DNA of 64,000 bases from Diplonema papillatum (lineage: Eukaryota > Euglenozoa > Diplonemea > Diplonemida > Diplonemidae). The translations under genes and the position numbers were made by a program. Location: the NCBI GenBank assembly GCA_030068145.1, contig JAPJBO010000562.1, positions 87,137-151,136 of the forward strand. Reading direction: 5' to 3'. This document shows positions 1-63,521 of this stretch, piece by piece (position 1 is the stretch's first letter; each line of letters begins with the position of its first letter). Below the pieces are notes generated by a model, which worked only from the letters and a program-made list of their open reading frames with translations, was not told the DNA's origin and made no database searches.

Positions 1-1505
<1,505 letters not shown>

Positions 1506-2002: not shown

Positions 2003-2007
2003 TTTTG

Positions 2008-3331: not shown

Positions 3332-3469
3332 ACACGGTGAAGTCTAGCCTCAGAAGCTGGAGTTAACGCTGGAGTTAAAAAGTGGGCGTCGCACCCGCTT
3401 TTCGGGTGTGACTCGGGCACACCCTCTTTAACTCCAGCTTCTGAGGCTGAGGCTGGACCTCACCGTGTA
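3332..3469. repeat. MITE-like foldback element, copy 1
   Basis: The ends ACACGGTGA and TCACCGTGT are inverted. Inside them the blocks CCTCAGAAGCTGGAGTTAA and TTAACTCCAGCTTCTGAGG are also perfectly inverted, giving a long hairpin with a GC-rich centre. A related copy lies at 62,950-63,120. It is too short to encode a protein and so is a non-autonomous element. Confidence 0.8.
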
Positions 3470-4891
3470 GTGTCGAGCGCACACCGCTCTTGCATCCCCC
3501 CCCCCCGGCATTCTAAGCACTCGCACTCCGCAGCCATTTCCGCACTGGTTCACCTTCGGTGGAGCGCGCTGACTCCAGCGCTGCTCACCTACTTCGGTTT
3601 TTTTTTTGTTTTTTGTTTTGCTTTCTTCTTTCCTTTATAGAGTTAAAGTTCGCTTGAAATTCCGAGGTTTAGGGTCTCCGTGTGACCGTTGATAAATGGG
3701 TTCTCTTTGATCAAGAAAGGGCTATACGGTTACGGGTTGTATATTTGGTGCACGCTTTCGTTATAGGTTATGGCTAGCCATGTCCGGGACTGTTTGTGAC
3801 CGACACCAAGTCACTCCATACTTTTTAGTATGAACAGTCTTGCGGGTTGCCCTTCAATGTGTTGTGCAGGCTAAAGTGACGTAGGTGTAGCGTGTTTTGG
3901 TGGTTGATCCGCATCCCTTGAAAATGACACAGTGTAAGTACAAGTGGAGAAATGATTGCACGCGAACAAACTCCAAGCGCCAGCTTGGACTTGCTTGGAA
4001 GGAATGCTCGACGAAGCTGCCAGACAACGAACCCTACGTATCCCAAGTGCTGTAACCACCGAACCACGGACGTGAGAAGCCAATTCCTAGGCAATTCCTT
4101 AAGGAAAAACATCAAAAACCCACACCGCAGCCACAAAAAACAGCCCGACTAGGACACAACCACACAGGGAACCCAAAAACATTCGGAAACCCCAGAAAAG
4201 TTTGATCCATACCGGTGTGTTGATAAAACGCCCGCAGAATGTGTCGCCAAACCGCCAGGACTGGTCAACCTCTACACGACAAGACACACAAACACAACAG
4301 GTTAAAAATCCTGAGTGAAAACGAATTTGACAGCAGACGCAGACACGTCTGCAGGTCAGCCTACTCCGGTACCATTTATGTGGACGTGCAGACCTCAGGA
4401 ATAAGAAGGCCAGCACAACAGCTTGGAAGCCTGGGGTGTACGAGCGCTCTCGTGCAAAAAATGTGACTTTGCCGTGCATGGCGCTGAAAGGGTTTCTCAC
4501 TTTGAGACTGCTCAAAAAGGAAAGGCAGGGACTGACAGTGATCGTCGCAATCCAACGGACCGACAGCCAGCGTCTGCAGTTTTCCGAAGATTGTCTGCAG
4601 ACGCGTCTGCAGGCAACACTGGTCCGGGGGCGTGTGCATGCTACCACCCAAAACGCGTGAAGCGGTACAGGTAGGTGGAGGCCGCTGGCCTCCACCCACC
4701 TGCATACAGCCGTCGATTGACCTTTCCCGAGAGGGACGAGTTGGAATGCAGGTACCATCTCCGGAGAGCTTCCGGTTTCTCCCAGAGTAGAGGAATTGAA
4801 GCAAACGCCGCCTGGGCCCCTTGAACGTTATTGCGGATCATCTCCTTGCCCGAAACCAAGAGGAAATTGGTGTGTCGGATACACCTCTTTA
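3470..4891. other. Intergenic stretch with eroded repeat fragments
   Basis: It holds a decayed family C piece (about 3,831-3,945) and broken family A pieces (about 3,970-4,075 and 4,258-4,320). It also has several CGTCTGCAG-type words between 4,325 and 4,640. No gene was recognised. Confidence 0.55.
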
Positions 4892-5100
4892 TTACACAAG
4901 CGCCAGCTTGGAAGGAAATGCTCGACAAAACGCTGCTAGACAAAGAACCGAAGGGATCCCAAGTGCTGTAACTACCGAATCACTTGTTGAACGGACGTGA
5001 GGTCATGCGGGTCTACCCCTACACGACAAGACACACAAACACAACAGGTCAAAAGTCCTGAGTGAGAAAACAACACACGGTGGTGTAAGTGAAGAACAAC
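4892..5100 (+). repeat. Family A repeat, A half only
   Basis: It begins ACACAAGCGCCAGCTTGG and ends GGTGTAAGTGAAGAACAA, which is the exact point where the A half of the YR retroelement's split repeat ends. No B half follows. It may be the left end of a lost element or a partial recombination product. Confidence 0.8.
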
Positions 5101-5757: not shown

Positions 5758-8700
5758 ATGCCAGCTGCAGAAGATGACAAGGAGCAGCGCGAGCTGACGA
5801 AGCGCATTCGACTCCTCGAGGTATGATGAGAGTATGTTTCGACAACGAACTGCTAGCGGCATGTGGGTCCATTGCAAACCGGCAACGGTTGCACACGAAC
5901 GGGAGTATGAGCCAACGAAAACCACATGCGCACTCAGCACTACACCCCCCAGAAAGGAACCCTGTACACGACGCGCAAAGAGCAAGAAACTTTTGCCTGA
6001 TCATTTTCATCAACTTTGGTCAGTTGATGCTGATCATCCGTTACTTCGCTTATCAGTGCAAGCCTCAGGGTTCCCTCCTTTTTCAGTCATCCCGCCGCCG
6101 AAGGAATTCTGAATTGCCGACGACTCACAGCGGATAGCAGCAAAAATACTCGAGGGACTGCCTTGTGCTCATTTCGAAGGAGGCTATTGGGGGAGAAAAC
6201 AATACAACTACAAAATGGGTCTTTTTGTTGATCGCTTACGCCCGTCACTAAACCCCCTGTGTTTCGTGTGGGCTACAGCACAATTTACCTCCTTTGATCT
6301 TTCGCAACTGGCAGTCTCCTCAAGCATTTCCTACAAAGCGGGTGCTTATACAAAACAAATAGTTCCGCTGTAGTCCTTTGAGTGAGAACAAGAGCGTGAT
6401 TCTTTCGCCAACCTTTCTGCAGGGCAACAGGCGGTCGTATGCTGGTGACACGAAGACGCAGATCCAGAAGCAGCAAGACACGGTGAGCACGCTCCGCAAG
6501 GAAAACAAGAAGCAGAAGGATGAGCTGAAGAGCGTGGCGGACACCACCGGGCTCTGCACGCGGTATCAGTCGGAGCTTGGCAACAGGGAAGAGACGTACG
6601 ACATGGTCCAGAGAAAGATCGAAATCGAAATGAGGAAGCTGCGCGAATACGAGAACAAGTCCGCTGAGTACGTGGCTGAAGTAGCTTCCAAACGTAAGGA
6701 GAGGTCGGCGACCATGGGCGGAGTGAACGCGACGCAGGAGAACCACCAAATTGTCGACAAGCAGGTCAAGGTGCTCGAAAACCGGCTGGACCAAGCCCTG
6801 ATCAAGTTCAACGAAGGCTTGAGCCACAACAAGGATCTGCGTGAGCAAATCGACAACCTCCGCCGCGAAAGGGTCTGTTGCTTTATTATTTATGCCGTAC
6901 CGGCGCACATTCGTATGGATCCGCAGTCTCCCGAAATATGGACGCCGAACGGAGCCGGAAGCGTCTTCTTCGTTTCGCGCTTCTTCCAGGCTTACTCAGG
7001 TTAAGAAAAACGTCGTTTCCTTGAAAGTATGGAAACGGAAACGAAACCCGGAACGTGTAACGTCTTGTTTTTTTTATAATATGCGCCTGCTGTCTCCGGC
7101 TGCTTCGGCAGACGACACATACTACTACTACTACTCGGCGGCATGCTGCAAAAACTCGCACCACAAGTGCCTGACTCACGAGCTGCCGACGTGCGATACG
7201 TGCATCCGGTACGAGGACGTGCGGTGCCGCAGGCCCAGGCAGTGCTGCAAGCGAGGGCCCAGGCAGTGCTGCAAGCGAGGACCCAGACAGTGCTGCAGAC
7301 GAGGGCCCAGGCAGTGCTGCAAGCGAGGGCCCAGGCAGTGCTGCAGACGAGGGCCCAGGCAGTGCTGCAAGCGAGGGCCCAGGCAGTGCTGCAAACGAGG
7401 ACCCAGACAGTGCTGCAGACGAGGGCCCAGACAGTGCTGCAAACGAGGACCCAGACAGTGCTGCAGACGAGGGCCCAGGCAGTGCTACAAGCGAGGGCCC
7501 AGGCAGTGCTGCAAACGAGGGCCCAGGCAGTGCTGCAAGCGAGGACCCTGACAGTGCTGCAGACGAGGGCCCAGGCAGTGCTGCAAGCGAGGGCCCAGGC
7601 AGTGCTGCAAACGAGGGCCCAGGCAGTGCTGCAAGCGAGGGCCCAGGCAGTGCTGCAAACGAGGGCCCAGGCAGTGCTGCAAGCGAGGGCCCAGGCAGTG
7701 CTGCAAGCGAGGACCCAGACAGTGCTGCAGACGAGGGCCCAGGCAGTGCTGCAAGCGAGGGCCCAGGCAGTGCTGCAGACGAGGGCCCAGGCAGTGCTGC
7801 AAGCGAGGGCCCAGGCAGTGCTGCAAACGAGGACCCAGACAGTGCTGCAGACGAGGGCCCAGGCAGTGCTGCAAACGAGGACCCAGACAGTGCTGCAGAC
7901 GAGGGCCCAGGCAGTGCTGCAAGCGAGGGCCCAGGCAGTGCTGCAAACGAGGGCCCAGGCAGTGCTGCAAGCGAGGACCCAGACAGTGCTGCAGACGAGG
8001 GCCCAGGCAGTGCTGCAAGCGAGGGCCCAGGCAGTGCTGCAAACGAGGGCCCAGACAGTGCTGCAAACGAGGGCCCAGGCAGTGCTGCAAACGAGAGCCC
8101 AGGCAGTGCTGCAAGCGAGGGCCCAGGCAGTGCTGCAAGCGAGGGCCCAGACAGTGCTGCAAACGAGGGCCCAGGCAGTGCTGCAAGCGAGGGCCCAGGC
8201 AGTGCTGCAAACGGGGGCCCAGGCAGTGGTGCAAGCGAGGGCCCAGGCAGTGCTGCAAACGTGAGAAGGTTTCCGTCTGTCAACAGCAATTGTGTAAAAG
8301 AGGGAAAGGGTGCGTGCCGTAGTGAGTGGTGAAGAGGACGAGTGTAAAAGAATGGAGGTGGCACAAACAACCAGACCAACGGATTGCCTTTCCTTCTTCC
8401 AGAAAAAAAAAAACAGCGCCAATATTAACAACCCCCCCGCGCAGGTTGTTTTCGACGGCATCTACCGCAAGCTCGAGAAGGAACTGCACGAAAAGAAGAA
8501 GCAAATGGCGGAAATCATCGAGAGGTCGAACCTGTACTATGAGGACAGAGACGCCTGTGGGTTGGAGCTTCGACACCTGCGGGAGGCGGCGGAGAAGGTA
8601 TGCTTCTGGACCCCGAGCGAAATTCCCCTCGGGCTACCGGTCTGGCGTTCCGGGTTCTCGTCCGTCGGTGTGGGGTTGTTACTTCGAATAGCGGCCGACT

Positions 8701-11700
8701 CTGTCACGAGTCTGCGAGTCTGTGTCGCGGGTTGGTGGAGGTGGGAGGGGTGTTGGGAAGGGGGAAAGAAGTAAAAGTCAGCCAGAGTCGAAGCTTCTAG
8801 AGCCGCCGGACGTCCGCTTCGGCCGCCGTAACCATGATCGCCTTCTGGTTGCTGCGATTCGTCTGTCTGGAGGCGGGGCGCGGAGACCGAGCGGCTCGAC
8901 GACGGTCGTCGTCGGGCACGCCGGAATCCCGCTGCGGGGGGCCGCCGCCTCGCCGCCGCCGTCACGTCGAGCCGGTCCGTCCCTATCTCTTGAAACTGCA
9001 TCGAAGTGCCTGTCGCTGTTTATCGCAGTGAATCACGGTTCCACCACGGTCTATCAGGTCCATACCTGGTCCCTAGAGCTGCATCGAATTGCCCGGTGCT
9101 GTATTCTTCGGTCTATCACGGTCTATCAAGAGGGGATGGACCGGTTCAGTCACTTGGCTTTGACTTGAATTGAAGTACTTCAATCCTAACCTCGGTTTGG
9201 TGGAGCGCAAGGACGACGTCTTTCCACTTCACCTGTCCTGGTAAAGCATAGTTCGGGCAATGCTAAGTTCGTTCAGTCGTTGCTTAGTTCAAGTAAAATG
9301 TGGGCATTGCTAAGTTCGAGCAAAGTTCGGGCAATGTAACTTACGGTCGAGGCTCCGATTCTCGAGTTTCCGAGAAATTCCGCGAAAAAGCGCAATTTTC
9401 GGGCACATTAGACTCCGAGAGCCTACGAACCCCGGAAAGGAAATTTGACCGGGAAAATGTCCTGGGCCAAGTCAAGACCCTTGGTGGGTGCGGGCATGAG
9501 GTTTTGCGGGTCTACCCCTACACGACAAATGACACAAACACAACAGGTCAAAGTCCTGAGTGAGAAAACAACACGCGGTGGTGTAAGCGAAGAACAAATC
9601 AGATTGTGTTTATATTGTATTCGCCCTTCTACCTCTACATTTCCTCCCTTCCATTCGGAGTCAACGCAGCTACGTCGGGTATTTTCTTGTTTCTTCTGTG
9701 CGCACTAGCGGTACTCATTTGCCAACTGCTAATTCTTAATACGTAGCATGGTTCAACTAGTTTCCACCCCTTCGCAGGACATCCAGCAGTACGAACGACA
9801 CTTCGAGGAGCTGGACCTGATGCTGGAGGCGAACAAAAGCCTCGAGCTGTCCATCAAGAGCATGCGAACGCAAACGCGGTCTTCTTCGAAGCCGGAGGAC
9901 GAAGAAGACGGCTCGCGGAAGAAGAAGCAGGACAGCCGCGGGAAGCAAGACTCCGAGCAGGAGCAGGAGCAACGATCTTACAACTACCAAGACATCGTAG
10001 ACCAGCTCAAGGAGGCGACCGGAATCCAGGACATGGAGGTGCTGCTGCAGAAGTTCGTGAAGGCCGAAGAGCAGAACTTCTCGATGTACAACTTCGCCAA
10101 CGAGCTGAACACCGACAACGAAAGGCTGGCCGAGGAGATCGAACAGTCGAAAGAGTTCACCATCATAGAGCGCGGTGTGAATTTGCTGCATTTGTTTCAC
10201 ATAAGCGCCAGCTTGGACGGAGCTCCAGACGAAGAACCGAAGGGATCCAAGTGCTGTAGCAACCGAACCACGTGTTGAACGGACGTGAGGTCATTCGGGT
10301 CTACCCCTTCACGCCAAGACACATGGCAAAGGTTGGGAATGTAATGCCAGCTAATTTCGTACAAAGCTCCGGGCAGAGAATGAAACACCACCGAACAGGA
10401 CACGCGTTTTCTTAGAACCGTGACCACAGAATCTGTTTGGGCGAACGCGGCATTGAATGTACGTTAAATGCGCGGCTCCGAGCGACCCCTCGAAGGAGCG
10501 GAGTTTAACCTGAGTTTTTATTTCCCTTTTAAGAAGGCCGCGGAAGTCGGCTGAGCCGGGAGCTTCCGGAGAGGGCTTAAGTATTACAACCTGGTTCGAT
10601 TGCGGGATGATAAAACCTCGGGGATAAAAGACTGCGTGTTTTTCCCGTCCAAGAAAAAAGTATACAGGATCTGCATACCCCAGGAGCCTCTGAACTACCG
10701 TATGCGGGTTTAATACGAAACGTGTAAATGTTTCTTAGCTACTTTTTGGCCAAAGTGTTTCTTAATTAACACGTTTCGTACTAAAAACATGGGGTCTGAC
10801 GTACATAGTGAAATTTGAAAACTGTTGAAACCCCATGATGATCCCCCATTTTTGTTCGAGCCTTTGAGCTGGAAAAACGTATCAGCTCCAATCGTCTTGT
10901 TGACATCCTCGAGCGTCCGTTTCTATGAACCAAGAGTCGGTGTCGGCGGAAAAGACCGTTGCAAGGTGGCTGACTATCTTGCTTCCACAAAAGTCAGAAA
11001 GCGAGCAAGATACAACGCATCTTCGGAGCGACCGGTCAGTTGTTACAAGCATCCAGTGCCAACCACGAGTTCCTGACACGCTAGTGTTCACGAAGGTGTT
11101 CATTAGGCGGGCACGCGTCAGTGACGGCAGGGTAAGCCGGTCGTATGGAAGGGCAGCAAGCAAAGGCGGAGTTGCCCTTTTTTAAAGAAGGAGTAAAGCC
11201 TCTCCAGGTGATTACCATACAGCTTCTTCTCGTGCTCGCCAGCCCCAAGACTAGCATGAACCGCATCCACCTCCACAGCAACGCATTCATCGTTTGCCAG
11301 TTCTTCAAGCTCTTGGTCAAAATCAGCGAAGTCAGAACGTTGATGCAACTGCGCATTCACTCAGTACGAGACATTCGTTGAAGTTGCGATGGAGTTCGGC
11401 GAGAACGTTGTCCCCGCAACCGGTGGCCTGGGGCAGTGTTGGCGGTGGCTCTCGGAGCTGGAGCCAGCTCGGGAGCTGGAAAGAGCCAGCGGGAGCCAGC
11501 AGGGCACAATAAAAAGCCATCTCAAAATTCCCCCAAAATGCGAGAAACCCTTTGCACATTTTTTTTGGATATCCGGGTCTACTTTTTGCGGATCTCTTCA
11601 TCGGAGCTGATCACGCAAAAAATCGCCGAAAAAGGTCTGCTACGTGGACCAGCAAAAATATGTCACCACTCGGGGGATTGATTCCCGTCCTTCTCGATGC

Positions 11701-14700
11701 ACACCGGTGGTTTCCGCGCCGGGGCCCTGTCTCTTCCAAAGACCCACAAACCACGCACATGTTTTGTGATCCCCGGGTCTAATTTTCACGGATCTCTTCA
11801 TCGGAGCTGATCGCGAGCGTAAATTCGTCGAAAAAGGTCTGTTCCGTGGACAGCGAAAAAAACGGCACCACCCAGGGGATCGATTCCCGTCCTTCCCGTC
11901 AAAACCCTGGTGGTTTCCATGTCCGGTGCCCTGCATCTCGTAAAGACCCGCGAACCACGCATACTTCTTGGTCCCGGGTCTATTCTTCACGGTTCTCTTC
12001 ATCGGAGCTTATCGCGAGCTAAAAATCGTCAAAAAAGGTCTGCTGCACGCACGAGCAAAATTTTCACCAGAACCCCAGCTCCCGCTGGCTCCCAAAGAGC
12101 CAGAAGAACCAGCTCCCAAGAGCCACCGCCAACACTGCCTGGGGGCTGTCTTCAACGAAGACCTTGGTCGGCCTCCTCTCCTGTTGGATCGGAAACTTTC
12201 TCTTCCAGTAAATTTGCGTCACTCAACCCGGTCACCACGAAACTCGCCCGGATTGTCGAATCTGCTTCGCTGGGGTGAAGGGCTGACGCGGGCGAAGAAA
12301 TTGGTGCCTATTTCTTTTTTGACGGGTTCAGATTTTCTGTCAATTTTCCTGCGTCCTTTTTTTAGTGTCGAGCCCCAGTTTACTCTAAGTACAAAACCCC
12401 TCAAAACCCCTATGGAAGTGCAGTTTTTAATACGAAACGTGTTAATGTTTCATAGCTTCAGATCCGGGGTGTTTCTTAATTAACACGTTTCGTATTAAAA
12501 CCGTTTCGTACTAAACACGTTTCATATTAAACCTGCATACGGTAATAATACCCTGGCTCAAGGCGCCTTTCCAAAAAGAGAAACCCCTCCCCGTAAAAGA
12601 ACAAAGTAGAAAGCTACAGGTTTGACACGTAGACCGATACGGACTGCACGGCCCTGCTCAACGTGTAGGACGTGTGGGGCCCAGGACCACTTGCACAACG
12701 CAGTGGACCTGGTGTCGGTCACATACGCCAAGTACATGGGTGTTAGGACCACCCTTAGCGAGTCTAGAGGTAACCTTTTGCTCAGTCGGCGTTTGCGCAC
12801 GAACCTTTTTGTCCAGTCCGGCGTTTGTGCAAACCCGAACCTTTTCGTCCAGTCCGGCGTTGGTGCAAACCCGAACCTTTTTGTCCATTGCGCAAACCCG
12901 AACCTTTTTGTCCAGTCCGGCGTTTGTGCAACCCGAACCGGTTGCCCAGTCCGGCGTTGGTGCAAACCCGAACCTTTTTGTTCAGTCCGGCGTTTGCGCA
13001 AACCCGAACCTTTTTGTTTAGTCTGGCGTTTGTGCAACCCGAACCGTTTGCCCAGTCCGGCGTTGGTGCAAACCCGAACCTTTTTGTTCAGTCCGGCGTT
13101 TGCGCAAACCCGAACCTTTTTGTTCAGTCCGGCGTTTGTGCAGCCCGAACCGTTTGCCCAGTCCGGCGCTGGTGCAACCCGAACCTTTTTGCCCAGTCCG
13201 GCGTTTGTGCAAACCCGAACCTTTTCGTCCAGTCCGGCGTTGGTGCAAACCCGAACCTTTTTGTCCATTGCGCAAACCCGAACCTTTTTGTCCAGTCCGG
13301 CGTTTGTGCAACCCGAACCGGTTGCCCAGTCCGGCGTTGGTGCAAACCCGAACCTTTTTGTTCAGTCCGGCGTTTGCGCAAACCCGAACCTTTTTGTTTA
13401 GTCTGGCGTTTGTGCAACCCGAACCGTTTGCCCAGTCCGGCGTTGGTGCAAACCCGAACCTTTTTGTTCAGTCCGGCGTTTGCGCAAACCCGAACCTTTT
13501 TGTTCAGTCCGGCGTTTGTGCAGCCCGAACCGTTTGCCCAGTCCGGCGCTGGTGCAACCCGAACCTTTTTGCCCAGTCCGGCGTTTGTGCAAACCCGCAC
13601 CTTTTTGCCCAGTCCGGCGTTTGTGAAAACCCGAACCTTTTTGCCCAGTCCGGCGTTTGTGCAAACCCGCACCTTTTTGCCCAGTCCGGCGTTTGTGAAA
13701 ACCCGAACCTTTTTGCCCAGTCCGGCGTTGGTGCAAACCCGAACCTTTTTGCCCAGTCCGGCGTTTGTGCAAACCCGAACCTTTTTGTCCAGTCCGGCGC
13801 TGGTGCAACCCGAACCTTTTTGCCCAGTCCGGCGTTTGTGCAAACCCGAACCTTTTTGCCCAGTCCGGCGTTTGTGAAAACCCGAACCTTTTTGTCCAGT
13901 CCGGCGCTGGTGCAACCCTAACCTTTTTGCCCAGTCCGGCGTTTGTGCAAACCCGCACCTTTTTGCCCAGTCCGGCGTTTGTGAAAACCCGAACCTTTTT
14001 GTCCAGTCCGGCGCTGGTGCAACCCTAACCTTTTTGCCCAGTCCGGCGTTTGTGCAAACCCGCACCTTTTGTCCAGTCCGGCGTTTGTGCAAACCCGAAC
14101 CTTTTTGTCCAGTCCGGCGCTGGTGCAACCCGAACCTTTTTGCCCAGTCCGGCGTTTGTGCAAACCCGCACCTTTTTGTCCAGTCCGGCGTTTTGTGAAA
14201 ACCCGAACCCGTTGAACCCTGAATCCTGGCCTGATAGACCCCCCCCCGGAAAACCCTGATGCTAAGTTCGGGATGATGGCAAGTTGGGGGCCCTTATCCA
14301 GGGGGGAGGGCCCCTCCGGACCGCCCCTGGTGAACCTTTGATGCTGAGTGCAGACCCGGAAAAAAGTCCACCGGCGGGAACCGAACCTCCCACCCAACGT
14401 CGTCAACTGACGACTGTGCCACGCCGTTGTCCGCCGCGAGAAATTTTCTCGACGAATTGTGAGTTCTCAAAAGTACCATGAAAAAACGGTAGAGAAATGT
14501 CCGGGGTGGGGGTACCCCACGGCCTGCCCCAGAAAAGTGGGATAGCTCGCTAGAGAGCTAAATTTGAGAATTTCTAATTTACCAACCTCTAGACTCGGAA
14601 AACGAAGTTACACGGATGCGCAACCACATGTGACAGTAAACAGTAAAGTAAAAGCGACACAAAGTACGTGAAGGAATAATGAAAACACACTGCCCAGACC

Positions 14701-17700
14701 CTGCTCTAACAGCACAAAAGGAAAACACCCCCTTCCCCCCTCGCCTCACAAGTCAAACGGAGACTTCGAAAAACTGACCGCTTACTACAAGAAACAGTCT
14801 AGAAATTGAATTACGCTCCTTCGACGGGTCACTCGTTCCTAACGTCGTCCCGCTGTTTAACGTACATTTAATGCTGCATTCGCCCAAACAGTTTCGGTGG
14901 TTACGATCCTTAGCTGGCCTGCTAAATCTGTGGGACAGAGTCTAAAGGTCAGTCCTTCCAGAAAAGTTGGCCCACATCAAGGCTTCTAAAGGCCAGTCCT
15001 TCCAGAAAAGATGGTCCACATCAAGGCTTCTGAAGGCCAGTCCTTCCAGAAAAGTTGCGAAGGCGGGACGGGCTCTGTGACGAAGGTGCAGCCGTGGCCG
15101 TTAGTCTAAGACACGGAGTTTAGCTGGCGGCGCGCAAGCTTGCGTTTCCTGGACGATCGTGCCATTCACCTCACGTGTCCGTGGACTGTTCCAAGAAATA
15201 TTGTGTCCTGCTTTGGTAGATTTTGTTCTCTGCCGGGGCTTGCTCGAAAGTAGCTGGCATTACACTTCGAAGAAACCTTCCCAACAACAGGCGACCTGGC
15301 ACGCTCGAAGCAGTTGAAAACGTTGGAAGAGGAGTTATCGAAGGCGGAATCGCTAGCCGAGACGCTGAACGACAGCACGGTCCAGTCGAAGAAGCGCATT
15401 GAAGAGCTTCAGGGTGCCATTCAAGAAGTTTTCAACAAGGTGGGCTATTCCGGAGATGACACCGACATTGGCGCTACTGAATGCACCGAAAGCAATATGG
15501 TGTGCCATCTTGTTCACCTGGCACTCATAACACACTTGTGTGTGGTGTGTCTATTATGAACACATGTACTTTAGTTATCATCGAGTCGACTTGTCATTGT
15601 GTTTATCTAGCACTGTGCTGCGTCCGACTTCAGCTTTGCAAGCTGTGGTTGACCGTCACGTTCCTGGACCCGGAGTGACCTTTTTCTTTTACATAAGCGC
15701 CAGCTTGAAAGGAAATGCTCGACGATGCTGCCCGACAAAGAACAGAAGGGATCCAAAGTGCTGTAACTACCGAACCACGTGTTGAACGGACGTGAGGTCA
15801 TGCGGGTCTACCCCTACACGACAAACACACAAACACAACAGGTCAAAAGTCCTGAGTGAGAAAACAACACACGGTGGTGTAAGCGAAGAACAAAAAGGGA
15901 TGAAGTGGAGCAGGGAGGCCGCGGTGGAGTGGGTGAAGCAGGCTACGGGGCTCCAAGTTCCGTCCGCTTTCCATTTTCGTCCGGACAATGGTCGACTGCG
16001 GCCGATTATCCGGTTGGCGGGGGAGGCCGGCGCTTCCGCGGACGCGTACCTGAGGTCCCTGCTAGGGGCCCTGGGGGGCGAGCAGCCGCCGAGCGGGACG
16101 GCGCAGTGGGTGTTGGCTTGGTTGGCATGCGCGTCCGCGCCCACGGCCACCCGTGCTGACTTCGAGGAACTGGTCCGGTCGGTGTCGCCGGACCGCGAAG
16201 ACCCCTCCCCTCGACTGCCTGGCCGCTCCGCCGACGCCTCGCACTCAGACTCGGCGGATTACGCCGCCATCTCCGCCGCCGCGGCCACAGCGGCGGCCCG
16301 CGCCTCATCAACTGCCGCCACTTCTGCTGCTGCTGCCGCGGCCGACCCCTCCGCCGCCTCGTCTTCCGCTGCTGCTCCGCGCACCCCCTCGGGGATTCCG
16401 CTCCCGGGAACACCGGACGGAGACGAAGAGGTCGCCCGGGCCCTGCAGGTCGACGTGCAGGACACGCCCGCGAGGCGGGTGACGTTTGCGGAACGCCCGG
16501 ACGACATCCGGCGCCTGGAGGGCCAGGTGGAGCGCCTCACCGCGATGGTGCTGGAGCTCGTGGAACGCTCCTCGCCCCCAGCCCCTCAGCGCCCATCTGT
16601 CCAGCGCAGCATGGAAGTGCCGCCCCCGCCTCCCCTCGTCGATGCCTCTCGCGTCCCGTTCGGGTCGCATCACGCGGGGGCAGGCCATGTTCCGGCGCCC
16701 TTCTCTGCCCCCCAGCCGCCGGCTCCCGTTCCTGCGCCGACGCAGCCCTCCCAACCGGTCCAGGAGAACCCATTCACCCTCCCAGACGGAGGTTTTTCAG
16801 CAGGACCCGCTCGACGCGCTGGAGCGCGGGTCCGTTCAATCCCAACCAGCGCTGATCACCCCGGGCCCCGGGCTCCTCGACCCCCGTGTGTGGCTGTCCT
16901 ACGGGCAGGTCGAGAAGTCGCTGCTCCTCGTCCACATCCGCGATATTTTCGCGGAAGTCCTCAACGGGTCGCAGACCCTGGCGAACGACGGCCAGCACCT
17001 CCTTCACCACCTCTCGTGCATCCTGCATCTGATGGACGACTCCTCCGACCCAGAGGGGATGGTGCAGCTCGCCGAGAGCACCTTGCACCGCCTAGTGGTA
17101 CTCAAAACAGGCCTCAAGGCGGGCTGGTCCGTTGCGGCGGACCTCCAGAAGGCGTACCACGAGGAGGACGTGGTGCCCGCCTTTCTCCGCCGGGGGTACC
17201 AGGCGATGCGGAAGGCGGACGAGCAGCCAACGAAGCCCGCCCGGTCTCGGGGGTTACCACAGACGAGGCGCGCTGCCCCTCCCCACAGCGCAGCCCCCCT
17301 TCCGCAGGCGGACGGGGCGCGCACCGGCAACAGGAGGAAGGGGTCTCGGTGAGCGTCCTGGACCGCTTCCCCCCACCTCCGCGCGCGACATCCGGTGGTC
17401 GGGCGCTTTTGTTGGAGCCTCCGCTGTCGAACGGCGAGCGGGAGAGACTTGTTGGCAAGGCCAACTCGTACATCGGCGACGCGCTGGCGTTGTCGACGCG
17501 ACGCGGCGTTCACTCGGTGTACCGGCGCTTCCTAGAGTTCCGCCATCACTGGGAGACGCGATTCGGTACGCCGTTGGACGTTCCGACGGCGGTCGTTCTG
17601 TTTGTGACGCGTCTCCTGTCGCGCGAACTGAACCCCATCTCTCCGTCCACCGCGATACAGTACGTGGTCAACGTACAATCCGCGGAGAAGCGTCTCGGTC

Positions 17701-20700
17701 GACCGATCGAGAGTCAGCTGGTTCGAGACTTCGTCAGGTCCCTGAAGAGGGCGGGTGCTTTGCGGCCGACCAAGCAGGCAGTTCCGGCCACAAAGGAGGA
17801 TGTGGAGCGCGCCGTGCGCCTCGAATCAGATCCCGTGATGCGTCTGGCCATCACCCTCGCGTGGCAGGGGGCAGCCCGGGTGGACGATGTCCTTACCAGA
17901 GAGGCCCGAAACGTGACCGAGAGCTCCGATTTCTGGTCGGTGAACTGGGTCGGCTCGAAATCGGACCCTTTCCGTTTGGGACAGGTGACCGGCGTGGTCC
18001 TTCCACCCCCGCAGGATCAGACTCTCCGATCCCTCCTCCGCTCCACGCGCCCGGGTCAACGTATTTTCGCGGGCGTCACGTTCCGCCGCGTCGTGGCGGC
18101 GCTGAAGAGGGCCAACCAGGCTCTGACGGGGCATTCCCTGCGCCGGGGGGCGCTGTTTCGCCTCCTGAGGATGGGCGTCGACCTCGACACGCTCCGGAGA
18201 GTGTCCCGCCACTCGACCCAGGATGCCCTTGTGCGCTACCTCCCGGAGGCGGAGGTACCCCTCGTCCGGGAGACGGCAGGCGCGTCGGCAACCCTCCTGT
18301 GAGCCTCCCTTTGGAACCGGTTTTCCCATACAGGCCGCCGAAGAGAGCTCCTCGTAACCCCCTGTCCAAGTGCTATCCTGGACCCGATGCTTTGTCGCAG
18401 GATGTACCCCCCCCGGCGTTTTTGGAAGCGATCCGGCACCATGGGGGCATCGGCGATGCCCCGCCGTCGGATTTTACGCCTTTCGTCACCGTCGCCTACG
18501 GGGGCGACCTCATCGTCAACGAGCTTGCCGCTCCTCCGGCGCAGCGCAGCTCGGAGGGGTATTTAGCGCCCATCACGTCCTCCTTCATGGATCTCGACAG
18601 GCTCCTTGCCATGGATACACACGGCCTACTCGGAGGCGTGTTGGACGTTATCAGGTCGCGTGAGTCTTTCGAGTCCGCGCTAGTCCGCGACGCCTCCTCT
18701 TGGCACTCAGAGGCCATAGCGCGCGGGACCTCGAGGCGGATGCTACACCACCTTCCGGACCTGCTGAAGTACGGTGTCGCGGAGGTAGCACACGAGCATC
18801 CGAGAGTCGTGCTCCCCGCATTCACGGTTCCCAAGAAGAGCGGGGGGGAGAGGTTCGTGTGCGATGGACGAAAGCTGAACGCTGTCATGCCCCGACCGCC
18901 TCCGATGCTCCTGCCCTCCATGCCCGACGTGATCGATCGGGTGCTAAGCTCGGCGGTCGTCTACCTGGCGGATGCGAAGAGCTACTTCTACCAGTTCGAA
19001 CTGGATGAGGGCGTCCGCGGGTATTTCGGCATGAACCTTGCGGGCCCACGTGGGAGTTTCGTCAGAGCCCGTTTAAGGGCGATGTGCATGGGCTGGAGCT
19101 GGGCTCCGGCGATAGCACAGAGAGCTTCTCGCGTCATCCTGCCGGAGACTGACGGTCTCCCGTGGGTTGACAATTTCATCATCGTGGGCGATTCTTTGGC
19201 CGAGGCGGAAGAGAAGTTCACACGTTTCGCCCGGCGATGTCGTGAGGTGAACTGCGTCCTCAACGACGACGAAGGCCAGTACGGGATCCCCCTCACGCAG
19301 TTCGACCTATTGGGGCTGCAGTTCGATCTGGCCAGCAGCCCACCTCGGTACAGTATGGCCACTGCTTGGGTTGAAAAGCTGCTGCGGTCTTCCGAACTCG
19401 CCGTTTTCCGGGGCGGAGCCGTTTCTCCCCGGGCGTTCTGGGCACGCGCGGGGGGCAGTCGATCCGACTATGGTCCGACGCCTCCTCAAAAGAATGGGCG
19501 GCGCTACTCGAGGGTGAGCCCGAACGGGTGTCACAGGGCATTTTCTTTGGTCACTTCGCAGAAAAGCACATTTTTTTGAAAGAGCTTTTCGCAGTGTTGA
19601 AAGGCCTCGAGCTAGCCGTTAGAACACACCGTGGAGTGTCCGTAGAGCTGATGGTAGACAACCTACCGGCGGTTCATTGCCTGAACAAGGGCCACTCGAA
19701 GAATTACGCGGCGAACACAATACTGTCGCGCATTTTTGATCTGGCCCGAGAGTACGGACTTGAGCTCACGGCTACGTGGGTGCCGACCCACGAACAGAGG
19801 GCGGACGAGTACACCCGGGGTACCCAGGCGAAAGAGAACGCGACGCCTGGAGGGTGGTTACCGAAGGAGGAAGATCTCTCGCCTCCTCCGGATCTGACTA
19901 CTTGAAAGGCCACTGCGTGGTCCCTGGGGGTCCTGGATGGTGTAAGCGAAGAACAAATCAGATTGTGTTTGTATTGTATTTGCCCCTTACCTCTATATTT
20001 CCCCCCTTCCATTCGGAGTCGAAGCAGCTACGTCGAGTATTTTTACATAAGCGCCAGCTTGAAAGGAAATGCTCGACGATGCTGCCCGACAAAGAACAGA
20101 AGGGATCCAAAGTGCTGTAACTACCGAACCACGTGTTGAACGGACGTGAGGTCATGCGGGTCTACCCCTACACGACAAAACACACAAACACAACAGGTCA
20201 AAAGTCCTGAGTGAGAAAACAACACACGGTGGTGTAAGTGAAGAACAAATCAGATTGTGTTTGTATTGTATTTGCCCCTTACCTCTATATTTCCCCCCTT
20301 CCATTCGGAGTCGAAGCAGCTACGTCGAGTATTTTTTTCTACGTTTTCCTACCGTTGTCGACAACAAATTCACAACCTTTTTACCAGGGCGAAAGCCTTG
20401 TGGTGCCGAGTAGACGGGATAGGGGGTTTGGGGGTTAGGGCCAATCGGTAGCCGCTTGACCCGTAGGCTCTGCAGTTCGCCGAACACGTGAAGCTTGGCT
20501 CCCGTGTACACAGGCTTTCCCCTGCGCGCATGGGGAGGTGTCGCTGCTCACCTGTCAAATCCGTCCTGACGTGGCCTCGGCCTGCCCCAATAGGAACGAA
20601 AGGAAAAGTTCAAAATTGGACGATCCCCATTTCTTTTTTTAGCCACATGCAATGTGTGAGGAAACTGAACCGCCGAAGTAGGACCTTCTGATCGTGACCA

Positions 20701-23700
20701 TTTGCCAAATTTGCCACCTGAAACCACGACCAGGATTTGGGCTCAGGGTAGTGCGGTCAACGAAAACTCTAGTTTCCCTTTCTACTTTCTCCTACTCTCG
20801 CGGTGTACGGTTTGCACATGCGGCCGATTCTGCCAATGTCGTCGTCTAGAGCCCGTCGGACCCCTTCCCGCAGCTCACCGTTGTAGAGCTTCGCACAGCG
20901 TGGAGCCGGCATACTTCCGTCGTACGCGGTGACACAAAATTCAGTCAGCTTATCGGAGAGCTCGGGGAGCTTGAGGATCTCATTTGGTATTCCGTCTGAA
21001 CCTGTCGCTTTTCCTCCCTTCAGTTTCTTTGCCACCGCCTGGACTTCAAGAATTGTCGACCTCCTGTCTGCGAGCACAAGAAGGGGAAGGTATCGGAGAA
21101 AGTCTGCCACAGACGGGTGCACATGTCACGGGTTCGTTCGAGGGTCGTCTCAAGATTTGTGCAGTGCCGAGTCTGAGTCGTGTCGTTGGCCCCTGTAGGG
21201 TGCCTAGTTGTGTTGTTCGAGGGTCGTCTCAAGATTTGTGCAGTGCCGAGTCTGCGTCGTGTCGTTGGCCCGTGTAGGGTGCGTAGTTGTGTTGTTTGAG
21301 GGTCGTCTCAAGATTTGTGCAGTGCCGAGTCTGCGCCGTGTCGTTGTGGCCCGAGTGGGGTGCGTAGTTGAGTTGTGTTGACCACGTGGCCGTAGCCGCC
21401 TGCCGCCTCCAATTTCGCCCACGCGATGCGCTCGCTTGCGACACCCATTTCGACCCAGGCAATCTGGGGCGACGTGAGCATCGCAATTCCACCCAGTTGG
21501 GGGTCCGCTGGTGCTGCTACCAAGTGTAGCCTCCTGCTGTCTCAATAGGGTAACCAACAGAAGTCTGCTACCGTACGGCTTCACGTAGCCAAGAACCCAC
21601 GCCGCAACCTTCTAAGGTGAAAACGTGGAAGAGAAAAGGCCTTTTCTTGCGTTCGGTGCATTCGCGAGTCGACTGCAGCGACTCGGCCAAGAGACCACCA
21701 GCAACCTTTTGCACCGAAGAGACACCACCACTCGCCGTCCCGACCACGGTGCTTATCCGGCGTCGCGGGAAACTATCCCTTGCCCTTCTCCACGAATCTG
21801 GTGCTCCTGCAGGCAAAGGATTTTCACGTCGCTTTCAATGCAGTAGAGCACGAGGTCCGCGGTTTTGCGTCGGTCCGTCAACGTGCGTATAAATCGAACT
21901 TCCGCTCCCTGCCGCACGGGCTTCTTCGGTTTGTGCCACCTGCGACGCGGGCCGCTTCACTGCTCGTCTGCGACTGCTCTGTACTCATCCGCGATTGCCG
22001 CTTCTCGTACCGACCGCGCCTGCCTTACCTCTTCTGCCTTTCCCTCTGTGGTCCGTCGGCCGCTCCGGCTCGGTCCGACAACATGCGACAGTTCCACGTG
22101 TGCTAACGCGAGTCAGATTGTTTGCTGTAAACACAGCCGTTCTTGGTCTGTTCCGTCGTTCGCAATTATTTGGCTCGACCCGGGCCATAGGTACTCCTTG
22201 CAGCACGGAACAGAGTTCTCCCAGCTATCGCCGTCCCCGAGTTAGCCGTGCCTCTCTGCTCCGTCTGCCGCGTCTCACCGGGCGTCTGCCCAAGTTTTCT
22301 CAACTCAAAACGCTTTTGGGAACCCCACCGATCACCACAAGCACGCACTAAGCTGAACTTCACAAACAAACAAAAGGTCGAAAGACACCAATCTGTACGG
22401 CCATTCGGGATCGTCGGAAACACAAGAACCCTTTATCAACGGTCACACGGAGACCCTAAAGTTTAGGCTAAACCCCCGGAATTTCAAGCGAACTTGAACT
22501 CTAAAAACCTCCTCATTCCCGCGGAGAAGACTAGCATAGGAGGCAGTTGTATAAACATGGAGATTTACCCCCCCTACTTTTAACATTGCCTCATGCACCT
22601 CAATAACGACAGATGATGTTCCTCGGAATGATTGAAGAACGCGCCAATGAGATTCTTGCGGCGTATCACGTCGTGAAGGCTTCCGAAACGCGGTCGAAGG
22701 CACGTCTGCGAGAGGAGGAGAAGAGGCAGTCCAAGGAGCGCCGCCTGCAAGAAAGGCAAAATCGAAGGGATCAAGGTGCTTTCTTCTCTCCGTTTTCTTG
22801 GTGCTAACAGCACCGTCATATCTTGCAATGGATTCTGAAAGTTTTCGCGACGTATTCAGCGTGTTTACGGGAACGTCTCCGGAACAACGGTTGCACATGA
22901 AAGAGAAAACGAAGCCAACGAAAAAGTGCAAACCCCCCGAGAGAGGTTTATACCCTGAACACGCGAAGAACAAGCAACTTTTGTCGTATCATTTTTATCA
23001 TCTTTCGTCAGTTGTTGCTGATCGTCCGTGTGCGTGCAAGCCCCAACTCCGGAAATGCTTTTGCTTTTCCTTCGGCTGACACCATTTGCGCACGTATCCA
23101 TGGTTAAGAAGACGACTGAAAGCATAGACACAAAGATAACTCGAAGCATCTGCAGAATAACACGAAAAGCCTCTGGGCAAAACCCCGTTTCACACTTCTT
23201 CAAAACCAGCACATTTTAACGACGTCCCCACGTTTCTTGACCACGCGCAACCATACTGACCACGCACAACCATACTGACCACGCACAACCATACTGACCA
23301 CGCGCAACCATACTGACCATGCACAACCATACTGACCACGCACAACCATACTGACCACGCACAACCATACTGACCACGCGCAACCATACTGACCATGCGC
23401 AACCATACTGACCACGCGCAACCATACTGACCACGCGCAACCATACAGGGGAAGACGTACACGGGGACGACGAAGACGATGAGGAGGATGCCGCCAGCGA
23501 GGCTGCGGGGACCGCGCCGTCGAGGTCGAACTTCTTGGGCAACGGCCCGGCGGTGCCCGTGGGCAGCACCAACCTTTCGAAGGTTGTCGAGATGAAGCTG
23601 CCGGCGGCGGCCGACTCGTTCAGCAACGACTACGCGGAGGACGGCGAGGACGAACGCCCCTTCTCCCAAGAGGAGCTCCGGCACCAGACCGAAGCGCGCA

Positions 23701-26029: not shown

Positions 26030-26240
26030 ACCGTACACCGCGAGAGTAGGTGAAAGTAGAAAGGGAAACTAGAGTTTTCGTTGACCGCACTACCCTGAGC
26101 CCAAATCCTGGACGCGGTTTCAGGTGGCAAATTTGTAAATGATCAGGAGCAGAAGGTCCTACTTGAGCGGTTCAGTTTCCTCACACATTGCATGTGGCTA
26201 GAAGAAAGAAGAAAAGAAAAAGAAAAAGAAAAAGGCCGCT
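26030..26240 (+). repeat. LINE 3'-end copy with A/G-rich tail
   Basis: The sequence to 26,205 is the reverse complement of 20,640-20,815. The copy then ends in AAGAAAGAAGAAAAGAAAAA, as expected for a 5'-truncated non-LTR insertion. Confidence 0.65.
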
Positions 26241-26495
26241 CCTGCTCCAGGAATGTCGTGACGGTCAACCACAGCTTGCAAAGCTTGAGTCGGAGGCAGC
26301 ACAGTGTCACAACCCCGTCCGCTCTGCCCTGCGGCTGACCGTCTCGACGAGCTTGTGTTCAGCGCGAGCGCCAAGCCCCAAGGTGCGCCAAGCCTTGATG
26401 CTTTAGTAGCCACTTGACCCGTAGGCCCGTGGCTCTGCAGTACCGCCGAAGACGTGAAGCTTGGCTCCCGTGTAGCAGGCTTTCCCTGGTACCAC
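26220..26495 (-). repeat. Dispersed repeat family E, copy in reverse orientation
   Basis: It carries the same blocks as 57,127-57,403 in reverse order: GACGGTCAACCACAGCTTGC, GCGGCTGACCGTCTCGACGA, CACTTGACCCGTAGGCCCGTGG. It directly follows the LINE tail. Confidence 0.8.
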
Positions 26496-29098: not shown

Positions 29099-29812
29099 GA
29101 TGGACGCACAGGTCAACCCGTACACTTCGGTGCAAGACCCAAATTGAAGATGTATTGGTCCCCCCGTTAGCCTCCATCGGAATAAGCGCAAGGCAGCCCC
29201 TCGAGTATTTTTGTTGTGTGGTTAGGGGAGTGTTTACTTGTGTCCTGGATGCACGAGGGTGGAGGTCCAGCCTCGGAAGCTTGACCTACACCAGGATGGA
29301 CGCACAGGTCAACCCGTTCACTTCGGTGCAAGACCCAAATTGAAGATGTATTGGTCCCCCCGTTAGCCTCCATCGGAATAAGCGCAAGGTAGCCCCTCGA
29401 GTATTTTTGTTGTGTGGTTAGGGGAGTGTTTACTTGTGTCCTGGATGCACGAGGGTGGAGGTCCAGCCTCGGAAGCTTGACCTACACCAGGATGGACGCA
29501 CAGGTCAACCCGTACACTTCGGTGCAAGACTCACTTTGAAGATGTATTGGTTCCCCCGCTAGCCTCCGTCGGAATAAGCGCAAGGCAGCCCCTCGAGTAT
29601 TTTTGTTGTGTGGTTAGGGGAGTGTTTAGTGTCCTGGATGCACGACGAGTGGAGGTCCAGCCTCGGAAGCTTGACCTACAGCACGATGGACGCACAGGTC
29701 AACCCGTACACTTTTCGGTGCAAGACCCACTTTGAACATGCATTAGTTCGCCCCCCCCTCTAGCTTCCGTCGGAATAAGCGCAAGGCAGCCCCTCGAGTA
29801 TTTTGTGTGGAA
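29099..29812. repeat. Tandem repeat of about 196 bp, 3.6 units
   Basis: Units start GATGGACGCACAGGTCAACC and include AATAAGCGCAAGGCAGCCCC followed by TCGAGTATTTTTG. The latter is the right end of family B, so the array appears to be built from a family B fragment plus other sequence. Confidence 0.9.
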
Positions 29813-34970: not shown

Positions 34971-37381
34971 ATGGTCTTTTTCTACACGCTTGCATCAGCG
35001 CCGAACATGACGTGCTACGTGGGGCGCGACAAACACGAGAACGAAGAACTCATCAAATGGGGCTGGCCGGAAGATGTCTGGTTTCACGTTGACGGTCATT
35101 CCAGGTGTGCAATCGCTTTCCGGCAAACCTCCCCCCGCCAGGACTGTGCACACACTTTCTTGTGTTAACAATGCATTGTTGGTACTAAGAATTAGTAGTT
35201 GGCAGCGTACTACATGAAACTTACCAAAGCAGGTGATTTCCGCTAGTGCGCACGTGGCTTTTGTGGCTAGAATTTCAACAAAACTACGCATTTCTTTCCC
35301 CCATGACCCAGGAAAATTGGGGTCCAGTGTCGCACGGTAAGCGGGAGAAAGTTCGTCGTCTTTTTTTGGCTGGAAGTCCTGTCGAACAAGCTTCCCTAAT
35401 ACAGTGCGCATATTTACGTTAGACTCGAGAAGGGTCAGACCATCGCAGACCTGTCGGAAGACGTTATCGAAGAGTGCTGCCAGCTCACGAAGGCCAACTC
35501 CATCGACGGCTGCAAGCTCAACAACATCAAGGTTGTCTACACCCCGTGGGCCAACTTGAAGAAGACGGCCACCATGGACGCCGGTCAGGTGTGTCCTCTT
35601 ACCCCACTGAGAATTTTTTACATAAGCGCCAGCTTGAAAGGAAATGCTCGACGATGCTGCCCGACAAAGAACAGAAGGGATCCCAAATGCTGTAACTACC
35701 GAACCACGTGTTGAACGGACGTAAGGTCATGCGGGTCTACCCCTACACGACAAATCACACAAACACAACAGGTCAAAGTCCTGAGTGAGAAAGCAACACA
35801 CGGTGGTGTAAGCGAAGAACAAATCAAAGATTGTGTTTGTATTGTATTCGCCCCTTACCTTTATATTTCCTCCCTTCCATTCGCAGTCAAGCAGCCACGT
35901 CGAGTATTTTCGTCGGCGACTCGCTCCTGCATTAGGAGAATGCTGCTACTGCAGTTTCACTGGAACATAAAAAATGGGGAAATACTCGACGTTGCGCTTC
36001 GACTCCGAATGGAAGGGAGGAAATATAGAGGTAAGGGGCAAATACAATACAAACACAATCTGATTTGTTTTTCGCTTACACCACCGTGTGTTGCTTTCTC
36101 ACTCAGGACTTTGACCTGTTGTGTTTGTGTGATTTGTCGTGTAGGGGTACGACCCGCATGACCTCACGTCCGTTCAACACGTGGTTCGGTAGTTACAGCA
36201 CTTGGGATCCCTTCGGTTCTTTGTCGGGCAGCATCGTCGAGCGTTTCCTTTCAAGCTGGCGCTTATGTAAATAAACAAGGGTCTAACGCACGATGTCTAA
36301 CGTGTGGGGTCCCAATATTAGTACAAACGAATAGCAACTGGTGGAGTTTCCTTGATGAATCGCGAGAGCCACGCCGCGCGCGCTAGCCCCTGTTGGGTTT
36401 GACTCTCGTCCGACTCGCGGAAACTGACGGGCCCGGACACAATTAAATTACGGCTGCTGCTCACAGTCGTTGTCGCTTTTTGCCCAGCCAAAATGGTGGG
36501 AAGGCGGCACCTGCTCTCACAGTTTCACTGATGGAGTTGATGCACCACGACAGTCGGAAACAGTTTTGGGTTAGAATGCAAAGAATCTGTAGCGACAATC
36601 TGCATCGATCGGAAACGGGGTGTGGTTGGTTGTAAACCCACAGCTAGCGTTATATCATCAATATCAGCATGCCATCCTAGGATCTATCCACGCTAGTGAG
36701 GTGGGGACGGTGGCCCAACACACCTACCAGCCCGGGGGCTAGGTGGTGGTGGTACCTCCCACCGCATGCGCACCTGTAGCTACTCACATAATCCTTCAGT
36801 TTTCACCCGCTCATCAGGAAAGGTTATCATCCATCATCCTCCAAGAGCTGAAGGTGCACGGCCTGCAGGGAGGTTGGAGTAAAGTTGCCCGTTGGAAGAA
36901 TGATGCCCCAGCATCAAACAAGGTAGGACAACACGAGTCCTCAAAAGGCTTCACATCCCTTGTGAGCTCTTATTTCGCATTGCGCAGAAATCCATGTACA
37001 TGCACAACACTGGCGTATTAGTACACCCACCGTGGTGTTTTAACGTTAACCTTCCATATATATAAACATCCAAACCAGGTGAGCTTCTTCAAGCCGAGGG
37101 AAGTGCGATCGTTCATGGTCACGAAGAAGAAGGCAGACATTATTAATCCGTTGGAAAAGACGAAGACGGAGAGGCCCGTCGACCTGAAGTGGGAACGTGA
37201 ACAGCGGGATACGGAGGAGAGGCACGAAGAGAGAATGGCTGCCGTGGCCAAGAAGGATGCAGAGAAGCTGCAACGGGAGGAAGACAGGAGAAAGGCCGAC
37301 CTCAAAAACTACGTCGGATTCACCGACACGTCGAACATGACCTCCAACAAAGAACCTATCGACCTTGATGACTTCATGTAA
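34971..37381 (+). CDS. CCDC25-like protein (NFACT-R / DUF814 domain), three exons, 206 aa
   Basis: Exons are 34971-35104, 35405-35588 and 37079-37381. Both introns are GT-AG. The first splits a Ser codon (AG|T) and the second is in phase 0. The protein opens [20 protein letters not shown] and has the family block [20 protein letters not shown]. Exon 2 continues with [36 protein letters not shown] and [17 protein letters not shown]. Exon 3 gives [18 protein letters not shown], a charged coiled coil, and ends PIDLDDFM. Length and domain order match animal CCDC25 (about 208 aa). Those proteins carry the NFACT-R domain found in ribosome quality-control factors, and mammalian CCDC25 has been reported as a DNA sensor. 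The function here is not known. Intron 2 contains two family A repeats in inverted orientation. Confidence 0.93.
35617..35910 (+). repeat. Family A solo A-B unit in CCDC25 intron 2
   Basis: A complete A (ACATAAGCGCC to GAAGAACAAA) is joined to a complete B (ending GTCGAGTATTTTC), with no coding region between them. It starts 28 bp after the donor site. Confidence 0.88.
35979..36271 (-). repeat. Family A solo A-B unit, inverted partner
   Basis: The reverse complement of the unit at 35,617, separated from it by 68 bp. Together they can form a hairpin with arms of about 290 bp in the pre-mRNA. Confidence 0.88.
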
Positions 37382-38244: not shown

Positions 38245-38545
38245 TTTTACGTAAGCGCCAGCTTGGGGAAGGAAATGCTCGACGAAATGCTGCCAGACAA
38301 AGAACCGAAGGGATCCCAAGTGCTGTTACTACCGAACCACGTGTTGAACGGACGTGACGTCATGCGGGTCTACACCTACACGACAAATCACACAAACACA
38401 TCAGGTCAAAAGTCCTGGGTGAGAAAGCAACACACGCTGGTGTAAGCGAAGAACAAATGAGATTGTGTTTGTATTGTATTTGCCCCTCTACCTCTACATT
38501 TCCTCCCTTCCATTCGGAGTCAAAGCAGCTACGTCGAGTATTTCT
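38245..38545 (+). repeat. Family A solo A-B unit
   Basis: It runs from TTACGTAAGCGCCAGC to ACGTCGAGTATTTC, slightly diverged (GGTGTAAGCGAAGAACAAAT at the junction). It is directly followed by a family B copy. Confidence 0.87.
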
Positions 38546-38552
38546 TTTTTGT

Positions 38553-52905: not shown

Positions 52906-52984
52906 CTCCCCTCACAGCGCTGCACAACGAACATCGGCACAGTGGCAAAGCTGCTCGGGGAATCGACACCTCGGCTTTCTTTTT

Positions 52985-53615
52985 TTGTATAAGCACCTGC
53001 TTTGTAGGAAATACTTGAGGAGGCTGCCAGTTGCAAAAGATCAAAGGAGGTAAATGTGCTGTAGCCCACACGAAACACAGGTGAATCTGGGTTCAGTGGC
53101 GGGCGCAAGCGTTCAACAAAAAAGACCCATTTTGTAGTTGTATTGTTTCTCCCCCTCTAGCCTCCTTCGAAGTAAGCACAAGGCAGCCCCTCGAGTATTT
53201 CTGTATAAGCACCTGCTTTGTAGGAAATGCTTGAGGAGACTACCAGTTGTGATAGATCAAAGGAGGTAAATGTGCTGTAGCCCACACGAGACACAGGTGA
53301 ATCTGGGTTTAGTGGCGGGCGTAAGCGTTGAACGAAAAAAGACCCACTTTGTAGTTGTATTGTTTTCTCCCCCTCTAGCCTCCTTCGAAATGAGCACAAG
53401 GCAGTCCCTCGAGTATTTTGTATGCGCACGCTTTGCAGGAAATACTTGAGGAGTGCCAGTTGTGAAATCTCGAAGGAGGTGAAGTGTGGTACTCATCAGC
53501 ATGCCGATGACCCCCCACGATTCGCAACAATATTCCAATCTCAAAGGAGGTCAACGTGCTGTGAAACGCAGGTAAATCTGGTTTTGTGGCGGGCGTAAGC
53601 GTTCAAGCGAAGAAT
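52985..53615 (+). repeat. Family B tandem array: two full copies and one truncated
   Basis: Units begin at 52,988, 53,203 and about 53,420, head to tail, each starting TGTATAAGCACCTGCTTTG or TGTATGCGCACGCTTTG. The third loses its right end near 53,610. Confidence 0.87.
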
Positions 53616-63464: not shown

Positions 63465-63521
63465 AAAATACTCGACGTTGCTGCTTCGACTCCGAATGGA
63501 AGGGAGGAAATATAGAGGTAC
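63465..63521 (-). repeat. Family A repeat, B-half fragment, reverse
   Basis: AAATACTCGACG followed by GCTTCGACTCCGAATGGAAG and GGAGGAAATATAGAGGTA, the reverse complement of B. Confidence 0.8.

Follow-up and report, generated by a model that had tools for sequence, protein, structure and literature searches.

Among retrotransposons that encode a tyrosine recombinase (YR), the order YR before reverse transcriptase (RT) and RNase H (RH) has been published for VIPER and TATE, and VIPER is described as known only from kinetoplastids (PMC3783388). VIPER, of 4390 bp, carries open reading frame (ORF) 1 at 169-1509, YR at 1510-2517 and RT/RH at 1386-4214 (PMC5146736); in T. cruzi and C. fasciculata it has the split direct repeats A1 and B1-A2-B2, SIRE being the A2-B2 part (PMC6681497). 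VIPER and TATE are reported to make no target-site duplication (PMC12278014). Here we present an element located at 15687-20336 of a 64,000-nucleotide stretch of the Diplonema papillatum contig JAPJBO010000562.1, the whole of which is called the window below. The element, a defective copy, very probably represents a VIPER-like YR retrotransposon that was active in D. papillatum until recently; it is likened to VIPER and TATE by their published layout and not by sequence.

Repeat comparison and Pfam searches give the order A1 - ORF1 - YR - RT-RH - B1 - A2 - B2 for the window element (Table 1). The Diplonema element is about 4869 bp long, with ORF1 at about 216-1664, YR at 1667-2614 and an open RT-RH frame at 1411-4434. 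It resembles VIPER in ORF1, in the abutting YR and in an open RT-RH frame that overlaps the whole YR (RT frame from 1411, YR 1667-2614), although chance overlaps are possible in GC-rich sequence; A1 with B1-A2-B2 and a short A2-B2 derivative are likewise common to both. It differs in the host class, Diplonemea instead of Kinetoplastea, and in its T-run targets. TATE, from Leishmania, Bodo and others, shares the order gag-like, YR, RT-RH as well as split direct repeats and tandem clusters, but L. braziliensis TATE is found in telomeric hexamer repeats (PMC6681497), whereas the Diplonema element stands at dispersed T-runs.

In the window copy A1 and A2 (208-209 nt) are 99% alike, as are B1 and B2 (107 nt), and a stretch of about 20 nt with which A ends and B starts (GGTGTAAGYGAAGAACAAA; 15875-15894 and 19938-19956) flanks the coding part. 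All residues of the YR signature R-HxxR-H-Y are present in the alignment. The preliminary description of this DNA had called the YR, RT and RNase H motifs clear; the YR matches PF00589, and the RT motif is WVDNF in place of YxDD. The match of PF00078 to the window RT lies below Pfam's own cut-off (25.2 vs 29.6 bits); homology, a model and a profile search against solved structures all confirmed the identity of the RT. The RNase H region (19447-19902) has no significant Pfam match of its own and is homologous to the RH part of relatives, e.g. P0001, whose model matches solved RT-RH structures. ORF1 of the window copy has no Pfam match, and its stop is overlapped by a GTG of the YR frame (GTGA). 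The copy is defective in two places: ORF1 changes frame near 16.8 kb, and the RT and RH segments are 16 bp apart vs 233 bp in complete copies, about 217 bp being missing. The element sits in the CT-rich tail (15608-15688) of another dispersed repeat family.

The D. papillatum assembly (271 Mb, 2910 contigs) was searched with the YR and, independently of the presence of YR, with the RT. At least 126 YR matches were found (1675 first-look candidates), none with an internal stop; those listed comprise 38 full-length matches at 100% identity (rounded), 31 at 93-94%, 47 at 74% and 10 others. The RT search listed 72 matches at 71 places, the second piece of one match (C30) being dropped. For pairing with the RT, 79 of the 126 listed YR rows (≥88% identity) were used and the 47 rows at 74% dropped. 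YR lies directly upstream on the same strand in 62 of the 71 listed RT places, downstream in none and on the other strand in none; nine have no listed YR within 3 kb. Twenty copies, all from the 100% YR group, were fetched with flanks, and 13 of them are complete from A1 through ORF1, YR, RT, RH, B1 and A2 to B2; parts are lacking or truncated in L023, L024, L027, L028, L031, L034 and L038. The inner parts of the complete copies are 98.5-100% identical, and within a copy the two A repeats show 0-9 differences over about 210 positions and the two B repeats 0-4 over 102. Their flanks vary from copy to copy, so the copies are not assembly duplicates, and the recurrence of the arrangement in many copies excludes chance as its source.

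The structure A1-ORFs-B1-A2-B2 and the position of YR before RT-RH, both given in the preliminary description, are thus borne out by intact copies with the same order and split repeats. YR downstream of RT and a pair of nested elements had been considered there as well; neither occurred. A chimera, in which a YR element and an RT element were nested or joined at this one place, might be suspected from the broken window copy and the repeat-rich genome (PMC10161547), but its probability is practically nil: it is ruled out by the 62 RT places with YR directly upstream, against none downstream, and by the 13 complete copies, and in P0038 and P0061, as well as in P0047, which has a different source, a single gene model holds YR ahead of RT.

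All three frames, each shifted by -1 from the preceding one, are open in nine of the 13 complete copies (L021, L022, L026, L029, L032, L033, L036, L039 and L040), while a frame is broken or fused in L025, L030, L035 and L037. YR starts where ORF1 stops (GTGA or GTAG), and the open ORF1 measures 483 codons in L036 and 493 codons in L043. The latter belongs to the 93% YR subfamily and has the same repeats and the same order; L042 of this subfamily has the same order, with an incomplete repeat set in the fetched part. In the 74% YR subfamily (family 2) the order recurs in L044, for which no repeats are reported, and in L045, which closes with a series of 216-bp A-B units and has about 20 nt (GCGTAAGCGTTCAACAAA) at the end of A1 and the start of B1 as the counterpart of the stretch flanking the coding part in the window. 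The -1/-1 frames were seen in one checked locus of each of these subfamilies. Between subfamilies the ratio of nonsynonymous to synonymous divergence (dN/dS) is 0.11 for YR, 0.13-0.17 for RT-RH and 0.26-0.41 for ORF1; in comparisons with the 74% subfamily, dS values of 1.2-2.2 are near or at saturation.

In Ngaro and PAT elements RT-RH precedes YR. RT/RH upstream of YR, as in Ngaro, was seen in none of the 71 listed RT places of the Diplonema element. Both groups are YR retrotransposons with split A-B repeats (PMC3783388, PMC4157794), a likeness that would fit a Ngaro- or PAT-like element with rearranged gene order, and their internal repeats lie downstream of the YR domain (PMC4157794). We regard such an origin as very improbable, as the RT-then-YR sequences met (P0080, P0086 and L041) are only distant and not confirmed as Ngaro or PAT. 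PAT further carries a putative methyltransferase (PMC4157794), whereas no methyltransferase family was found in a Pfam scan of five ORF stretches of the window. DIRS1 is also a YR retrotransposon and recombines at a short junction core without target-site duplication (PMC3266345), but it has inverted terminal repeats, and no inverted pair (≥25 nt, seed 11) was found in 13500-22500.

The position of the RT motif YxDD reads xxDN (WVDNF, WIDNF, YVDNF or WVDNW) in 72 of 73 RTs of the family (P0001-P0028 and P0034-P0078, near-duplicates included); the exception, P0028, has no motif and is cut short. The motif C of the window copy is located at 19167-19181, and alignment to the solved RTs of cauliflower mosaic virus and Ty3 places the WVDNF-type motif on YVDD/YLDD. 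The distant relatives P0086 and P0080 have YVDNF and YLDDF, respectively. Because the RT sits in many near-identical copies, the asparagine seems compatible with RT activity. The strings WVDNF and YVDNF had no occurrence in the literature matched by a mixed-term query.

The B1/A2 junction reads GAGTA-TTTTT-ACATAAG with exactly five Ts in all 13 complete copies and in the window, and T-runs of variable length stand outside A1 and B2. Computed on the assumption that five Ts came from the donor junction, the target T-run is at least 7 long in 10 of 14 full copies and 10 of 16 solo A-B units, vs 0.3% of window positions; this count leaves out L055 (flanks of L046) and L058. In L058 a family-2 unit is interrupted at TTT by two A-B units of family 1, that of the window element, and both sides share only TTT. 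An empty site was looked for by joining the flanks, with no clean case among the fetched loci; the comparison of L030 with L031 was rejected, its sole spanning row being only 71% alike.

By analogy with the published split-repeat model of PAT and Ngaro, an RNA from A1 to B2 would be copied by RT-RH into a circle with its ends joined at B-TTTTT-A. The YR, with a Cre fold, would recombine the T-run core of the circle with a genomic T-run and leave T-run flanks; strands might be joined within the stretch of approximately 20 nt with which A ends and B starts.

The closest RT proteins are D. papillatum gene models with 97-99% identity, and the host is therefore not a stramenopile, as had been supposed from the sequence at the outset, but a marine diplonemid (Euglenozoa, Diplonemea). 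Diplonemids are the sister group of kinetoplastids (PMC12699882). More than 60 Diplonema ORFs are reported to resemble TATE, Mutator-like element (MULE) and Helitron proteins (PMC10161547), so the presence of TATE-like ORFs in Diplonema is partly known; their structure is not described there, and no description of the structure of this element in diplonemids was found among the open-licence PMC papers listed. Of 85 RT sequences three with <180 residues were dropped, and a tree of the remaining 82 rows was computed by a quick method with Shimodaira-Hasegawa-like approximate likelihood ratio test (SH-aLRT) values only. The window RT falls in D. papillatum sets (SH-aLRT 100 and 99) within a 74-row clade with a value of 91, below the 95 from which the program stars a branch. 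This clade also holds, in three places, transcripts coded PhM_4 and PhF_6, which we take to be Papus ankaliazontas and Apiculatamorpha spiralis. The codes are those of strains of basal kinetoplastids (PMC7859406). P0080 and L041, in which RT precedes YR, fall outside the clade, both with very long branches, and P0086 was among the sequences dropped as too short; the profile search had found P0080 and P0086 with E-values of 5e-17 and 6e-5. L041 (5124-8483), from the contig search, is a distant element with RT before YR; it lies on a contig of 10 kb in a metagenome-assembled genome labelled Chromatiales and probably represents eukaryotic contamination. No IMG/VR relatives were obtained from the window RT or from a second profile, and ten relatives showed no Peptidase_A17, which has been reported for TATE.

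Several observations weigh against a VIPER-like element that integrates at T-runs. No trypanosomatid or Bodo protein is among the species-named matches of the profile search, most of the 78 being unnamed and the search requiring shared words. This absence, the xxDN motif of the relatives and the homoplasy reported for structural traits of YR elements (PMC4157794) would suit a separate lineage of YR retroelements in which YR came to stand before RT independently of any VIPER/TATE ancestor. We consider such a lineage unlikely, given a host in the sister class of the kinetoplastids, the PhM_4 and PhF_6 transcripts inside the same RT clade and the match to VIPER in ORF sizes, overlap, split repeats and short A-B derivatives. 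As to expression, no -1 slippery site was found between ORF1 and YR (searched in L036 only, with AAA or TTT as the second triplet only), the sole candidate in the right frame in L036, C CCT TTC inside YR and 333 nt before its stop, is not convincing, and an early AUG is absent from the YR frame in three subfamilies. As to integration, some Ts of the implied T-run may have come with the element, and a 6-nt word stands beside both T-runs in three of 14 full copies (L022 CAAGAT, L033 CCCCCG, L040 GACCAA). The mean length of such flank words in the full copies is 1.71 vs 0.98 after shuffling, 4 of 500 shuffles being as high; the 16 solo units show no excess (0.88 vs 0.88, 272 of 500 as high). Words of at least 4 nt are confined to the three full copies named and to one solo unit, where the word is a T-run; the L033 word is C-rich and that of L040 lies among local TTTTGACC repeats. 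A consistent target-site duplication is thus not seen, and a short duplication in a minority of insertions or repetitive T-rich targets may explain L022, L033 and L040.

Short forms of the VIPER-like element are frequent: at least 41 near-full A2B2 matches (41 of 44 listed, from 821 candidates) occur in the genome, and 36 of the 41 listed look solo. Of the remaining five, three are ≤5 kb away from YR or RT matches listed, and a B1 piece adjoins the other two (C2623 and C192). Families 1 and 2 together cover 4045 bp of the window, 3438 bp of these outside the element. Such solo units are either products of recombination between A1 and A2 or short passengers moved in trans. The short A-B form has a precedent, since SIRE of T. 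cruzi corresponds to A2-B2 of VIPER; its origin, as a remnant or by movement with the help of VIPER, is left undecided (PMC6681497). A family-1 unit is directly followed by a family-2 unit in L048, L051 and L052, tandem family-2 units occur in L045 (5085-6464), and in arrays of two or three families all units end in CGAGTA-T-run. Because every B-T-A junction is itself a T-run, A-B units could insert beside or into each other and build arrays, and insertion at these junctions may account for the composite arrays. A wider proposal, which we put forward as possible but tentative, is that YR-before-RT retrotransposons form an ancient lineage across Euglenozoa that is active to this day, with the element as its diplonemid branch; the RT of this lineage would work with the asparagine of xxDN, and its YR would build satellite-like arrays through insertion at T-run junctions.

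Table 1. Parts of the retrotransposon copy, related A-B units and associated repeats in the window
Feature	Position	Strand	Remarks
A1, left split direct repeat	15687..15894	+	starts at T-run (TTTT-ACATAAGC)
ORF1	15900..17352	+	gag-like by position only; frameshifted near 16.8 kb
YR ORF including stop	17349..18302	+	R-HxxR-H-Y; domain 17352-18299, PF00589, E 2.5e-6
RT	18311..19430	+	motif C WVDNF; frame -1 relative to YR; PF00078, E 1.5e-5
Deletion site between RT and RH (~217 bp)	19431..19446	+	window copy vs complete copies
RNase H part	19447..19905	+	out of frame with RT in window copy
B1	19938..20044	+	direct-repeat search
A2	20041..20249	+	B1/A2 junction GAGTA-TTTTT-ACATAAG is the presumed circle junction
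B2, right end (GAGTA-T-run)	20230..20336	+	~20 nt (GGTGTAAGYGAAGAACAAA) in common with end of A2
A-only fragment	4892..5099	+	94%
A-B unit, 3' part	9491..9685	+	91%
A fragment	10195..10323	+	81%
Tandem array, period 196	29099..29804	+	units ending CTCGAGTA-T-run; read as third-family A-B units
Solo A-B unit, SIRE-like	35616..35910	+	95% to A2B2
Solo A-B unit	35980..36271	-	96%
Solo A-B unit	38245..38543	+	92%; family-2 unit 38552-38765 8 bp further on
Two tandem family-2 A-B units	52982..53415	+	216-218 bp; 74% YR subfamily
B-end fragment	63465..63520	-	96%
Other members of the CT-rich-tail repeat family	57323-57403, 60084-60162; 26224-26306 (-)		

Other features of the window include a gene of the phosphorylase superfamily at 1163-2002 (PF01048, 5e-19) and a gene with weak EF-hand matches at 50260-51852, of which a partial second copy, seen in the ORF translations, lies at 52243-52992 and runs at its end into a family-2 A-B unit. 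On the minus strand, 20769-21122 holds an ORF without Pfam match whose GSDGIPNEILK stretch presumably is a remnant of an RT of the long interspersed nuclear element (LINE) type. Tandem arrays are located at 7232-8261 (24 bp, 43 copies) and 12800-14209 (36 bp, 40 copies).

On the sequence evidence, a VIPER-like architecture is present outside kinetoplastids. Of the two outcomes proposed in the preliminary description, an extension of the VIPER group or a new group, the former stands as an extension of the architecture and the latter is not needed; because D. papillatum belongs to the sister group of kinetoplastids, the extension reaches a neighbouring class and not a remote supergroup. With structurally complete and nearly identical copies in the sister class, the architecture would have arisen as early as the ancestor that kinetoplastids and diplonemids have in common. 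With their xxDN polymerase, these apparently mobile elements offer a test of how strictly the YxDD rule holds, and D. papillatum is a free-living, genetically tractable host (PMC8611851) in which mobility could be studied. For the way in which the end of a retrotransposon could become a satellite, the composite A-B arrays suggest a concrete model.

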